Below, one piece after another: positions 28,208 to 32,646 of a stretch of DNA of 64,000 nt. The translations under genes and the position numbers were made by a program. The stretch comes from Mangrovihabitans endophyticus (GTDB lineage: Bacteria > Actinomycetota > Actinomycetes > Mycobacteriales > Micromonosporaceae): NCBI RefSeq assembly GCF_014646155.1, contig NZ_BMMX01000015.1:62001-126000 (forward strand). Reading direction: 5' to 3'. Every line of letters begins with the position of its first letter. Positions within the stretch are counted from its first letter, which is position 1. The notes under the pieces were generated by a model. The model did not search any database. It had not been told where the DNA came from and was given only the letters and a program-made list of their open reading frames with translations.

Positions 28208-29104
28208 ATGGCCCAGACGGCGGTAGCCGATACCGGCACGAAGAAGTCACTTCGGGAGCTGGCACGGCGGCACGGCTTGAGCTCGGCCGGGGCGCTGCCC
28301 AGCCTGCCCAATTACACCCGGCAGCTATGGTCCTACCGGCACTTCATCGCGGCGTATGCGAACGCCCGGGTGACCTCCGCACTGGGCAAGACCCGGCTCG
28401 GCATGGTCTGGCAAGTGCTCACCCCGCTGATCAACGCCGCCGTCTACTACGTCATCTTCGGGGTGATTCTGGGCACCCGGGGCGGCATCGACAACTTCAT
28501 CGCCTACCTGTGCACCGGCGTCTTCATCTACGGGTTCACCCAGAACACCGTGCAGGCCGGCATCCAGGCGATCACCGGAAACATGGGACTGATCCGGGCG
28601 CTGCATTTCCCGCGCGCCAGCCTGCCCATCTCGGTCACCCTCGTCGAGGTGCGCAACGTGCTGGCCTCGATGGTCGTGCTGATCGCCATCGTGCTGTTCG
28701 ACGGCGAGCCGATCACCGTGGAGTGGCTGCTGATCATTCCGATCCTGCTGCTCCAGGCGATGTTCAACGCGGGGCTGGCACTCGGCGCCGCCCGCCTGGG
28801 TGCCAAGATCACCGACCTGAAACAACTGGTGCCGTTCGTCATGCGGTTCTGGATGTACGGCTCGGCGGTGCTCTACCCGGTGACCCGCTTCACCGATGCG
28901 CTGCACGGCTGGAAGCTCACCCTCGTGGAGGCGAACCCGCTGCTTGTCTTCATCGAGCTGATGCGCCATGCGCTGATGGAGGACGTGCCGTTGGCCGGCA
29001 CCCCGACGCGGCTCTGGATCGAGGCAGTGGTCTGGGCGATCGTCGTCGGGGTCAGCGGTTACGTCTACTTCTGGCGCGGAGAGAAGGGGTACGGCCGTGG
29101 CTGA
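28208..29104 (+). CDS. ABC-2 permease of a wall glycopolymer exporter (Wzm/TagG-like)
   Basis: 298 residues with about six transmembrane helices and the polysaccharide-export permease signature after NYTRQLWSYRHFI: KTRLGMVWQVLTPLINAAVYY near the N-terminus. With the ATPase that follows (8-bp overlap) it makes an exporter for lipid-linked teichoic acid, galactan or O-antigen-like polymers. GGAG precedes the ATG. A TetR repressor and operator lie divergently upstream. Confidence 0.92.
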   Translation: MAQTAVADTGTKKSLRELARRHGLSSAGALPSLPNYTRQLWSYRHFIAAYANARVTSALGKTRLGMVWQVLTPLINAAVYYVIFGVILGTRGGIDNFIAYLCTGVFIYGFTQNTVQAGIQAITGNMGLIRALHFPRASLPISVTLVEVRNVLASMVVLIAIVLFDGEPITVEWLLIIPILLLQAMFNAGLALGAARLGAKITDLKQLVPFVMRFWMYGSAVLYPVTRFTDALHGWKLTLVEANPLLVFIELMRHALMEDVPLAGTPTRLWIEAVVWAIVVGVSGYVYFWRGEKGYGRG

Positions 29105-29867
29105 CAGCGAAGTGCCGACGGTGATCGCGGACGACGCGCACGTGGTCTACCGGGTCTACGGCTCGAACACGTCGGCGTCGAACACCCCGCTGGCCAGCTT
29201 CAAGCGGATCATCACCGGCAAGCGCCCGTCCGCCGTCCGCGAGGTGCACGCCGTCAAGGGCGTCAGCTTCGCGGCGTACCGGGGTGAGGCGATCGGGCTG
29301 ATCGGCAGCAACGGTTCCGGCAAGTCGACGCTGCTGCGTGCCATCGCCGGCCTGCTCCCGGTGGAACGGGGCGCGATCTACGCCGCCGGGCAACCGTCCC
29401 TGCTGGGCGTCAACGCGGCGCTGATGAATGACCTGTCCGGCGAGCGCAACGTGGTGCTCGGCTGCCTGGCCATGGGCATGTCCCCGGCCGAGGTGCGGGC
29501 GCAGACCGACGACATCATCAAGTTCTCCGGCATCAACGACCGCGGCGATTTCAGCTCGCTGCCGATGCGGACCTACTCCTCCGGCATGTCGGCCCGGCTG
29601 CGCTTCTCCATCGCGGCGGCCAAGAAGCACGATGTGCTGCTCATCGACGAGGCGCTGGCCACCGGCGACGCCAAGTTCCGGCGGCGCAGCGAGCAGCGGG
29701 TCCGCGACCTGCGCGCGGAAGCCGGCACGGTGTTCCTGGTCAGCCACAGCGAGCAGTCCATCCGGGACACCTGCGAGCGGTGCATCTGGCTGGAGTCCGG
29801 AACGATCCGCGGCGACGGACCGACCGAGGAGGTGCTCAAGGAGTACGAGGCCTTCATGCGTAAGTAG
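29097..29867 (+). CDS. ABC ATPase of a wall glycopolymer exporter (Wzt/TagH-like)
   Basis: 256 residues, GTG start inside the permease gene. Walker A GSNGSGKST (70-78), YSSGMSARL signature and VLLIDEAL Walker B. The N-terminal extension of about 50 residues before the Walker A and the signature are typical of TagH/Wzt. No C-terminal carbohydrate-recognition domain is present, so export is probably of the type that needs no cap recognition. Confidence 0.92.
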   Translation: MADSEVPTVIADDAHVVYRVYGSNTSASNTPLASFKRIITGKRPSAVREVHAVKGVSFAAYRGEAIGLIGSNGSGKSTLLRAIAGLLPVERGAIYAAGQPSLLGVNAALMNDLSGERNVVLGCLAMGMSPAEVRAQTDDIIKFSGINDRGDFSSLPMRTYSSGMSARLRFSIAAAKKHDVLLIDEALATGDAKFRRRSEQRVRDLRAEAGTVFLVSHSEQSIRDTCERCIWLESGTIRGDGPTEEVLKEYEAFMRK

Positions 29868-29893: not shown

Positions 29894-30994
29894 TCAGCGC
29901 ACCGACAGATGCACATGGTTCTCGTGGTTGCTGGACGGGTCGCCGTGCGCCCCCGAGTAGGACTTCCAGCCACTGCTGGGCAGCCAGATGCGCCGGAACC
30001 AGATCACGTAGAGCACACCCAGGCGGCCGGAGTTGCTGATGAAGAAGTTCGCCAGCCGGTTCCCGTACGTCTTGCTGCTGCCGGTGGCGACGCCGCCGAA
30101 CCCGTTCTTGTCCGCCGCGAAGTCGCACGCCCTGCCCTTGGGGTGTTCCCCGCTGTTCTGGTGCCGGAAGCAGGCCACATAGTGATTGAACCCGGCCTTC
30201 TTGGCTTCCTGCAGGGCATGAAGCATGCGCGGGGTGATGCACCCGCTGGTGGTGGGGTCGTTCACGGTGCACCCCTCGGCGGGTAGCGACCCGTCGGAGT
30301 TGCGCGGCGCCGCGGCCGCCTTGGCGCTGCCGCTGCTGCTGCCACCGCCGGACGAACTGCCACCACCGGAAGAACTGCTACTGGAGGAGTTGCTCCGACG
30401 ACGGGCCGCCGCCTCCGCTGCCGCCGCGCGCGCGTTGGCCGCCTTGATCGCGTCCTCCGCCTGATTCTTGCGCTTAGCCATGACGGTGACCTGCTTCTGC
30501 TGGTCCTTGATCTCGCCGTCGATGGCCGTCTTGGCGCGGGCCTGCTCCTCCCGTGTGCCGATCAGCTCCTTGACCGCGGTGTCCTGCTTGACCGCGACCT
30601 TCTCCAGCGTCTCCGCCCGGTCCAGCAGACCGCCGGAGCCGGTGCCGGTGATCAGTGCGCTGACCGCCCCGAGCCGACCGGTCTGGTATGTCCGCCGGAC
30701 GATCTCGTCGAGCGCCGCCTGGCGCGGCCCGATCTCGCCGTCCAACTCCTTGAGCTTGGCGGCCAGTTCCGACTGGCGCTTCTTCGACCGTTCGAGCGCC
30801 TCCTTGGCCTCGACATATCCCTTCGAGGCGGCGGCGAGCTGCTGAATCAGCGTCTTGGAGCCGCCTTCTCCATCGTCTCCGGTGTCGCCCGGCGCGGCGG
30901 ATGCCGGTGCGGCCGCGGCGACGGCGAGGCCGCTCACCATCACCATGAAAGCGAGTGCCGCCGCCCAGCGACGGCGGACAGGATGGTCGTGCAC
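29894..30994 (-). CDS. secreted coiled-coil protein with M15-like C-terminal domain
   Basis: 366 residues, GTG start after AGGAAGG. Signal peptide (about 1-34), long coiled coil (about 45-200) like those of NlpC/P60 and RipA-type hydrolases, a Ser/Gly linker, and a C-terminal domain (about 250-366) with HPKGRACDFAAD and a final NHVHLSV. The spaced His, Asp and His resemble zinc ligands of D-Ala-D-Ala carboxypeptidase (M15)-like folds. A peptidoglycan-remodelling role is likely. A c-di-AMP riboswitch immediately upstream controls it. Paralogue of the divergent gene at 31531. Confidence 0.85.
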   Translation of the reverse strand: MHDHPVRRRWAAALAFMVMVSGLAVAAAAPASAAPGDTGDDGEGGSKTLIQQLAAASKGYVEAKEALERSKKRQSELAAKLKELDGEIGPRQAALDEIVRRTYQTGRLGAVSALITGTGSGGLLDRAETLEKVAVKQDTAVKELIGTREEQARAKTAIDGEIKDQQKQVTVMAKRKNQAEDAIKAANARAAAAEAAARRRSNSSSSSSSGGGSSSGGGSSSGSAKAAAAPRNSDGSLPAEGCTVNDPTTSGCITPRMLHALQEAKKAGFNHYVACFRHQNSGEHPKGRACDFAADKNGFGGVATGSSKTYGNRLANFFISNSGRLGVLYVIWFRRIWLPSSGWKSYSGAHGDPSSNHENHVHLSVR

Positions 30995-31000
30995 GTGCCT

Positions 31001-31123
31001 TCCTTCCGTCGGCCGCCGACCGGGTTAGCTGACGGGTTCGGGACGGAAGCGATCCCTACCGCCGGGAAGGCGGATTCACCCCTGAGGAACCTGGGTCCCC
31101 GGCTCGCTGTGGGCGATTAGGCG
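31001..31123 (-). promoter_or_regulatory. ydaO-type c-di-AMP riboswitch (minus-strand gene)
   Basis: Read on the minus strand this leader contains, in order, CGCCTAATCGCC, GAGCCGGGGACCCAGG, GGGGTGAATCCGC, GCGGTAGGGATCGC, CCGAACCCGTCAGCTAACC, CGGTCGGCGG and a closing GGAAGGA. These are the conserved blocks of the actinobacterial ydaO/yuaA class, which binds two c-di-AMP molecules and usually turns off wall-hydrolase genes when ligand is high. It ends 7 bp from the GTG start, so the ribosome site is part of or next to the last helix. Confidence 0.92.
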
Positions 31124-31403
31124 GCGGTCTCGTGATGAGACCGTGACAGAGACTACCGAGGAATTCGGGAATCGACAGGTGTCGCACTCAATGCAACTTC
31201 GAGAACACCATCCGTAATGTGGCCGAGGGGCAAGGAGAAGGAAACGACTCACATTGATGTGGGTTACGGGGGATATCACGGAGAGTCGCTATCCGATAAC
31301 GCCATTGCCACGCGTTCGCCGTCCTGGATGTACGCCGTTTCTCAGGTAAGCTGGCCGCCGGTCAGGCCAAGGAAGGCACGCCCCCGATGTGCCGGCTGAC
31401 CAC
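31124..31403. other. central divergent promoter region between two riboswitches
   Basis: 280 bp between the two oppositely oriented riboswitches, lower in GC than the flanks. It must carry both promoters. A palindrome with arms GGTCTC/GAGACC lies at 31126-31142, next to the 5' end of the minus-strand leader. I see no confident -35/-10 pair and no gene. Confidence 0.5.
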
Positions 31404-31524
31404 CGCCCAATCGCCGCGAGGCGAGCCGGGGAACCAGGTTTGTGGGGTGAATCCGCACTACGCGGTAGGGATCGCTTCCGTCCCGAACCCGTCAGCTAAC
31501 CCGGTCGGCGGACAACCGGAAGGA
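31404..31524 (+). promoter_or_regulatory. ydaO-type c-di-AMP riboswitch (plus-strand gene)
   Basis: Conserved blocks in order: CGCCCAATCGCC, GAGCCGGGGAACCAGG, GGGGTGAATCCGC, GCGGTAGGGATCGC, CCGAACCCGTCAGCTAACC, CGGTCGGCGG, GGAAGGA. Its 3' half is nearly identical to that of the minus-strand riboswitch, so the pair forms a long inverted repeat around the divergent promoters. The terminal GGAAGGA is also the ribosome site for the ATG at 31531, suggesting translational as well as transcriptional control. Confidence 0.93.
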
Positions 31525-31530
31525 CTATGC

Positions 31531-32586
31531 ATGACGGCACGCCCCCGCGGGTGGCTCATCTGGGCCCTGACCCCGCTGGTCGCTGCGACGATGACGATCG
31601 CGCCGGCATCCTCGGCGAGTGCCGAGCCGGGCAGCTCGTCCAGCAGCTCGGACGACAAGTCGAAAAAGTCCGACGAGGACAAGACCGCGGACGAGGGCGA
31701 CGAAGACACCCTGCTCAACGACGTACTCGAAGCGACCGGCCGGCGTTACCAAACGGCCAAGGACGCGGTCGCCAAGTCGACCAAGGCGCAGCTCGCCCTG
31801 TCGGTGCAGGTGAAAAACGCGGAAGCCCGCCGCGACGCGCTGATCCCCCAGGTCAGCGCCGTGGCCAACCAGCAATACCGCACCGGCGGCGTGTCCACCA
31901 TGAGCTTCCTGCTGGACAGCGGCAGCACCACCGCATTCCTGCACCGCGCCATCTCGCTGGAGGAGATCAACTCCCTCAACGACGGGAAGCTGCGGCAGCT
32001 CAACGCGGCGATCGACGAGGTGCAGGCCAGCAAGGCCCGCTTGGACGCCGAGGTCAAGGCGCAGAAGCAGAACTACTCGGCGATGGCCAAGCAGAAGGAA
32101 GAGGCCGACAAGGCCTTCGCGTTGGTCGGCGGCAAGACGGTCACCAAGGGATTCGTGTTGGCCAAGTCACCGGTGGCCGACCCCGCCCCACGCAATTCCA
32201 GCGGCGGTTTCTCCCCGGAAGCGTGCACCCAGGACGATCCCACCACCAGCGGCTGCGTCACTAAGCGCACACTGCACATGTACAAAGAGGTACGCAAGGC
32301 GGGTTTCAATCGCTTCGCCGGCTGCCACCGCAACGGCGGTCCGTTCGAGCATCCGAAGGGCCGCGCCTGCGACTGGTCGCTGCAGAAGAGCGGTTTCGCG
32401 CCGTTCCACAACGACGACACCTTCCAGTACGGCAACAACCTGATGGCGTTCGCGGTGCGCAATGCGGACCGGCTCGGCATCCTTTACGTCATCTGGAACC
32501 GGATGATCTGGTTCCCGGCCAGCGGCTGGAAGACTTACCACGGCGTCAGCGCGCACATCGACCACGTGCACATCTCGATGCTCTGA
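31531..32586 (+). CDS. secreted coiled-coil protein with M15-like C-terminal domain, paralogue 2
   Basis: 351 residues from the ATG 6 bp after GGAAGGA. Signal peptide (about 1-34), Ser/Asp/Lys-rich charged stretch, coiled coil (about 60-200) and the same C-terminal domain as the divergent paralogue: TTSGCVTKRTLHMYKEVRKA, HPKGRACDW and a final HIDHVHISML. Likely a wall hydrolase or wall-binding factor. The upstream frame is open through the riboswitch, but that part is leader RNA, not protein. Ends at a very strong bidirectional terminator. Confidence 0.87.
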   Translation: MTARPRGWLIWALTPLVAATMTIAPASSASAEPGSSSSSSDDKSKKSDEDKTADEGDEDTLLNDVLEATGRRYQTAKDAVAKSTKAQLALSVQVKNAEARRDALIPQVSAVANQQYRTGGVSTMSFLLDSGSTTAFLHRAISLEEINSLNDGKLRQLNAAIDEVQASKARLDAEVKAQKQNYSAMAKQKEEADKAFALVGGKTVTKGFVLAKSPVADPAPRNSSGGFSPEACTQDDPTTSGCVTKRTLHMYKEVRKAGFNRFAGCHRNGGPFEHPKGRACDWSLQKSGFAPFHNDDTFQYGNNLMAFAVRNADRLGILYVIWNRMIWFPASGWKTYHGVSAHIDHVHISML

Positions 32587-32596
32587 TCACTCGCTC

Positions 32597-32646
32597 GACG
32601 TGACGAGGCCCCGCCCGGGTCGACCCGGGCGGGGCCTCGTCACGTC
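32597..32646. terminator. 50-bp perfect palindrome, bidirectional terminator
   Basis: Arms of 25 bp (GACGTGACGAGGCCCCGCCC... read inward to GGGTCGACCC at the centre) are perfect reverse complements with no spacer. It lies 10 bp after the plus-strand stop and 8 bp before the convergent minus-strand stop, ideal for terminating both transcripts. Confidence 0.9.

Follow-up and report, generated by a model that had tools for sequence, protein, structure and literature searches.

Two divergent c-di-AMP riboswitches share one control region

Two riboswitches of one class that stand back to back across a genus, each in front of its own gene, allow one to ask why two separate switches have been kept at a single locus, what their genes encode and how they would be controlled. 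Searching the window, by which we mean the whole 64-kb stretch of DNA that was analysed, with Infernal against Rfam 15 gave exactly two matches above the gathering scores, both to RF00379 (gathering score 38), and each lies beside a gene for an apparently secreted protein.

30998-31133, minus strand: c-di-AMP (ydaO) riboswitch aptamer of gene A (RF00379, 89.6 bits, E = 1.2e-19, model positions 1-134)
31394-31527, plus strand: c-di-AMP (ydaO) riboswitch aptamer of gene B (RF00379, 91.3 bits, E = 4.1e-20, model positions 1-134)
29894-30994, minus strand: gene A, apparently secreted coiled-coil protein with a C-terminal LAS/M15-like domain (ORF; paralogue of B; 9flh and RipC matches)
31531-32586, plus strand: gene B, apparently secreted coiled-coil protein with a C-terminal LAS/M15-like domain (ORF; invariant columns; 9flh match)

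The sequence-only reading of this DNA had proposed two ydaO-type riboswitches and had named rejection of either RNA by a covariance-model search as one result that would refute it; neither was rejected, and both are full-length members of the family. The aptamers face outward from one shared region, as had been described, although the gap between the Rfam matches measures 260 bp (31134-31393) and not 280 bp. The near-identity reported for their 3' halves also holds: the two share a 55-nt inverted repeat that is 96% complementary, and from GGTAGGG onward they are identical at 50 of 52 bases. Judged by the spacing from the putative ribosome-binding sites, gene A would start at a GTG and gene B at the in-frame ATG at 31531 (its listed ORF begins at 31387), so that 28 nt in A and 29 nt in B separate the aptamer core from a start codon on the aptamer's own strand. 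Both RNAs belong to RF00379 and would be transcribed in the 5' leaders of their own genes, and a chance origin is excluded by their scores together with the recurrence of the layout described next.

The mirrored pair is conserved across the genus

Of 60 genomes sampled from the genus, taken as Actinoplanes in the wide sense with the window's genome included, 59 have the head-to-head pair with both aptamers; named relatives are Actinoplanes, Paractinoplanes, Winogradskya, Amorphoplanes, Symbioplanes, Couchioplanes and others. This figure is made up of 54 pairs seen as aptamer cores in the fetched loci and the window, two more in genomes G027 and G038, and three in G017, G018 and G037; most layout counts given here rest on the aptamer-core pattern (up to 2-4 mismatches), not on Infernal. 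Adding one pair of another genus (Spirilliplanes, L103) to the 54 genus pairs yields the set of 55 pairs used below, which leaves out four pairless loci (L105, L107, L108 and L121) and a surplus third core of L120. Wherever both proteins of a pair were readable, one side is of the A type and the other of the B type; for 7 pairs, the type of one side was deduced from that of the other.

The exception among the 60 genomes is Actinoplanes sp. TBRC 11911 (G021; L108/L139), which keeps both genes head-to-head; an RF00379 search of its locus did not find the A aptamer. The missing aptamer appears to be a natural loss. In this locus (L139, 2100-2460) gene A is kept, and of its upstream elements only the ribosome site and a -10-like stretch are left, near each other. 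In the locus of Actinoplanes liguriensis (L151, 797-1878, the same as L077), gene A was matched in two separate pieces in one comparison and only in part in another, which would be a frame break or a draft-assembly error.

From 568 places encoding a relative of B, the best 80 were taken as a second sample. Among its 43 non-Micromonospora loci, 41 have the mirrored pair with both aptamer cores, and the two without the full pair are L139 and L162; since many of the organisms are the same, this count and that of the 60 genomes are not independent. L162 is an extra B-type gene of Actinoplanes couchii, with no aptamer core nearby and no RF00379 match. In all 37 Micromonospora loci among these 80, one aptamer core precedes a B-type gene and no A-type gene is adjacent, although two of them (L170 and L185) lie on short contigs with too little upstream DNA to exclude one. 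A further aptamer core lies past gene B in Micromonospora L173.

Three wider samples were surveyed for the layout, the first of them giving the better negative. Among 40 fully listed genomes of the class, 35 have RF00379, three same-strand neighbour pairs occur and the window's genome alone has a head-to-head pair. The earlier description of two riboswitches that face away from one promoter region, with a wall-type protein gene behind each, is supported. Across 61 genomes of the family, head-to-head pairs were seen, among the matches listed, only in three genus genomes and in Spirilliplanes (G087, L103/L160), which thus also has the mirrored pair. Exact cores at 366-396 nt spacing were found in 0 of 397 genomes of the order, by a pattern that misses the window itself and recovers 5 of 7 positive controls, missing G000 and G087.

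Proteins A and B are paralogues that differ at a likely catalytic position

We next compared the two proteins. A and B are identical at 114 of 324 aligned positions (35%, E = 8e-68), which bears out the earlier description of them as paralogous. Both are apparently secreted, to judge from signal peptides read at their N-termini, and the N-terminal half of each is a coiled coil; that of A is related to mycobacterial RipC (8idc, E = 3.2e-5), and B has no significant match to RipC (E = 0.51). The C-terminal domain is related by sequence to PDB 9flh, a LysM domain-containing protein (E = 3.3e-7 with the A profile and 2.8e-4 with the B profile), which differs in being a 129-residue chain and under whose code no paper was found.

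The label 'M15-like' given to these proteins drew little from profile searches and more from a solved relative and from motifs. Neither window protein scored above cut-off with any Pfam or NCBIfam model, A coming closest, in NCBIfam, to an NlpC/P60 model that matched its coiled coil with 20.9 bits where the cut-off is 517; Pfam matches of their relatives are weak and scattered, the VanY profile matched 1 of 28 A members (E = 0.01), and VanY is absent among the families listed for relatives of B (25 of 27 shown). On the other side stand the 9flh match and the invariant H-x6-D and H-x-H motifs, which are kept in both A and B. In B, H274, D281, D344 and H347 are invariant in 28 of 28 B-type members, and H345 is invariant too. 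H274, D281 and H347 would supply the zinc ligands (H-x6-D plus a distal His) and D344 the acidic base, with the spacing of PlyP56, an M15 endolysin whose zinc ligands are modelled as His80, Asp87 and His132 and whose base is modelled as Asp129 (PMC5977269). B resembles the M15/LAS zinc peptidases PlyP56 and Ply500 in its H-x6-D and D-x-x-H spacing (PMC5977269) and looks like an intact LAS-type zinc peptidase.

Protein A keeps the ligand pattern (H284, D291 and H362) and, unlike PlyP56 and Ply500, has an Asn at the base position, just as its N-terminal coiled coil resembling RipC sets it apart from them. With Asn359 where B has Asp344, A lacks the acidic residue expected as the base ahead of its distal zinc ligand, and the difference is consistent, with Asn in 28 of 28 A-type and Asp in 28 of 28 B-type members; the A-like genes of other genera have Asn in 25 of 26 cases, L223 having Asp. 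A is a paralogue of B in which an active-site residue has changed. In other LAS enzymes the first His of H-x-H may be the catalytic residue, and if that holds here A could still be active.

Predicted structures were of moderate to poor quality (mean pLDDT 72.5 for A and 60.8 for B). Foldseek with the model of A gave a best E of 0.016 and a list filled by coiled coils, RipC (8idc) ranking ninth with E = 0.077; the comparison bore little on the C-terminal domain.

Two features flank the genes. A perfect 25-bp inverted repeat without spacer lies just 3' of gene B (32597-32646) and may be a transcription end or a cruciform. Judged solely by the ORF list, two ORFs convergent with gene A (28208-29867) look like the permease of an ABC-2 type exporter and its ATPase, of the kind that exports wall polysaccharide.

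Conserved elements of the control region

Comparison of the 55 pairs brought out several elements between the two aptamers, the promoter hexamers of A and B being read from conservation only.

31125-31143, minus strand: P0 hairpin just 5' of the A aptamer core, CGGTCTC-ATCAC-GAGACCG, overlapping the unpaired 5' end of the Rfam match
31360-31401, plus strand: P0 double hairpin just 5' of the B aptamer core, GGTCAGGCC...GGCTGACC
31150-31178, minus strand: probable promoter of A, CTGTCGATT at 31170-31178 and TAGTCT at 31150-31155
31347-31352, plus strand: probable -10 of B, TAAGCT
31241-31300, no strand assigned: central element between the promoters, TTACGGAAAGTCGTTGnnnGGTAAC in many relatives and diverged in the window

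The A-side P0 hairpin was followed in 43 distinct rows from 53 of the 55 leaders, where several pairs have changed on both sides, and the B-side double hairpin in 41 distinct rows from 55 leaders, where each of its 12 pairs is standard in 36-41 of the 41. These conserved P0 hairpins are not among the pairs of the Rfam model. A -10-like hexamer of the TAGTCT kind occurs in 53 of 55 A leaders and an element of the type GGTAA[A/G]NT, corresponding to the -10 of B, in all 55 B leaders; a scan for standard sigma-70 consensus promoters found none at the locus.

At the central element, 34 of the 55 pairs contain AGTCGTTG, with at most one mismatch, on the strand that runs toward B, and 16 of 55 contain it on the opposite one, compared with about 0.16 strand hits per shuffled sequence, and several wide-spaced loci have a second, inverted AGTCGTTG-like copy there. 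The element is a possible regulator site. It does not mark a wider regulon: a 26-base pattern (at most 2 mismatches) occurred once each in 4 of 5 genomes, always at this locus, and the same pattern has no match in the window's own genome. Its sequence is reminiscent of spaced GTAAC repeats, and the consensus predicted for Streptomyces coelicolor MtrA is, in the part of the report available, GTAACC-N5-GTAACC (PMC12323332); because the repeat spacing differs from this consensus, we make no claim for MtrA.

In both leaders the aptamer loop is complementary to the putative ribosome-binding site

In each leader a loop of the aptamer is complementary to the putative ribosome-binding site, which lies directly at the aptamer's 3' end.

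31042-31049, minus strand: A aptamer hairpin-loop segment CTTCCGTC, complementary to the A ribosome-binding site
30998-31010, minus strand: putative A ribosome-binding site GACGGAAGGAAGG
31475-31482, plus strand: B aptamer hairpin-loop segment CTTCCGTC, complementary to the B ribosome-binding site
31516-31524, plus strand: putative B ribosome-binding site CCGGAAGGA

This arrangement is general. All 110 leaders of the 55 pairs have a GGRAGG ribosome site within the 26-nt tail, and in all 110 the loop and this tail share at least 5 contiguous complementary bases. CTTCC is present in the loop of every B leader (55 of 55) and of 35 of the 55 A leaders; the 20 A leaders without it pair through a shifted CCTTC. 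Over 153 distinct aptamers, the true loop/tail combinations reached -9.58 kcal/mol compared with -9.23 kcal/mol for swapped partners (0 of 300 swaps as low) and -7.03 kcal/mol for shuffled tails, in statistics that ignore relatedness. Other genera gave the signal as well: for their 63 combinations no swap out of 300 was as low, and a repeat that left out all loci of the genus had 1 of 300. In the 77 combinations of the pair set alone, covariation of loop and site did not reach significance (23 of 300 swaps as low), since there is hardly any variation in either partner; conservation of the ribosome site could by itself keep the match.

No terminator accompanies the leaders in a scan limited to stems with T-runs, which found no site in or just after either one. 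The three sites that it did find lie on the minus strand inside gene B, and a T-run terminator was rejected as the expression platform. GC-rich actinomycete terminators often lack T-runs. With a ribosome-binding site that can pair with the aptamer loop in both leaders and no terminator found, translational repression is the likely mode, and we consider it probable that A and B are under two independent and near-equivalent riboswitches, by which c-di-AMP turns both genes off in parallel at translation. Each divergent promoter would make its own leader, in which a P0 hairpin is followed by the ydaO aptamer and at once by the ribosome-binding site and start codon. At high c-di-AMP the aptamer would fold and its loop CUUCC would pair with GGAAG of the ribosome-binding site, so that translation of both wall proteins would be off together; at low c-di-AMP both would be made. 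The mirrored layout looks as if built to shut both genes off together. Ligand binding, the OFF direction, the translational level, secretion and wall-enzyme activity are what we infer for the pair.

The same riboswitches might instead let c-di-AMP stop transcription early, with no T-run terminator involved. Premature transcription termination by a ydaO-type leader is reported for S. coelicolor rpfA, of the same class of riboswitch and the same phylum, in the available text of that study (PMC10117811), and this Streptomyces leader is described, in the accessible part of another, as lacking a canonical terminator and as regulated independently of Rho (PMC9960051). In the window, however, only 28-29 nt separate core and start codon, with no terminator-like site among them, and the ribosome site is itself complementary to the aptamer loop, which makes early termination unlikely. 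Very improbable is the idea that one aptamer is functional and the other a remnant: 1 of the 60 genomes does lack the A aptamer while retaining the A ribosome site, but both window aptamers score about 90 bits over the full model and both are kept in the other 59 genomes.

Recent duplication of the pair is not supported and its leaders are not complementary

The sequence-only reading had explained the locus by an inverted duplication, with possible RNA-RNA pairing between complementary leaders; we weighed it as a duplication of recent date. The 55-nt inverted repeat could suggest as much, and so could the similarity of aptamers within genomes, which slightly exceeds that between genomes (0.762 vs 0.739, a difference that none of 1000 permutations matched). 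A recent duplication is contradicted by a maximum-likelihood tree of 67 proteins, for which the window, 24 of the 80 named loci and 26 loci from other genera supplied the sequences: 8 solo B genes of Micromonospora group with Actinoplanes B, the 26 A-like genes of other genera group with Actinoplanes A, and the split between A and B has support 100/100 (the root serves for drawing only). An aptamer core lies just upstream, on the gene's strand, in 23 of the 26 A-like loci (L206-L231; those without it are L227, L228 and L230). A and B stand back to back in Actinoplanes and Spirilliplanes and apart in other genera, mostly with an aptamer each. Their duplication is older than their pairing, which speaks against an origin of the pair by recent inverted duplication. 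Two histories would fit: the joining of two separate loci, or the break-up in other lineages of a pair that was there before.

For 104 of 110 aptamers the closest match is a same-side aptamer of another genome, and just 4 resemble their own partner more than any same-side aptamer, so gene conversion is not the main force, and the stretch that forms the repeat in the window is highly conserved in aptamers of other genera too. Recent inverted duplication and gene conversion were both set aside on the same-side affinity and the A/B tree.

Pairing between the leaders fares no better, because the two transcripts are similar in sense sequence and not complementary. The predicted interaction gain of the A and B leaders is -13.2 kcal/mol, within the range of shuffled B leaders (mean -9.6, sd 4.9; 7 of 40 as good) and at chance level, as compared with -280 kcal/mol for a true antisense control; the longest perfect antisense match between them is 9 nt, a length reached by 52 of 200 shuffles. 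We rejected duplex formation, and the account that joined it to a recent duplication is almost certainly wrong.

Relation to known c-di-AMP riboswitches

The nearest parallel is the nlpC gene (cg2402) of Corynebacterium glutamicum, likewise a wall peptidase gene behind an RF00379-class riboswitch without a canonical terminator; in the available text, reporters point to translation, and the authors propose that CTCC pairs with GGAG of the ribosome site, the same kind of loop/ribosome-site pairing, there as a proposal (PMC9960051). Further control of nlpC by MtrA and other regulators counts as another likeness (PMC9960051, as available). It differs from the window pair in encoding an NlpC/P60 enzyme and, in the text available, in having no mirrored partner mentioned (PMC9960051). 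In S. coelicolor, the ydaO-type leaders of rpfA and of six further genes for putative wall hydrolases likewise form an actinomycete c-di-AMP regulon; rpfA differs from our pair in its reported control by termination, and the available part of the paper mentions no mirrored layout (PMC10117811). A literature search that took in few subscription journals gave no title or opening of an abstract on c-di-AMP riboswitches in mirrored arrangement.

The sensor class and the wall-hydrolase targets are already known, and what is new is the mirrored layout and the active-site difference between A and B. The Asp/Asn difference gives a concrete hypothesis on how the two proteins relate, and Actinoplanes sp. 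TBRC 11911, with one aptamer missing, offers a natural control. Tentatively, and as a rather unlikely reading, the pair might be a genus-fixed double switch, by which c-di-AMP, through a matched riboswitch on each divergent transcript, sets a fixed dose ratio of active B to a base-lacking A that acts as its partner or brake.

The window's genome has six RF00379 matches in all. The four other riboswitches precede three NlpC/P60 genes and one transglycosylase-LysM gene of the Rpf kind, and these targets point, as in Streptomyces, to wall hydrolases under common control by c-di-AMP.
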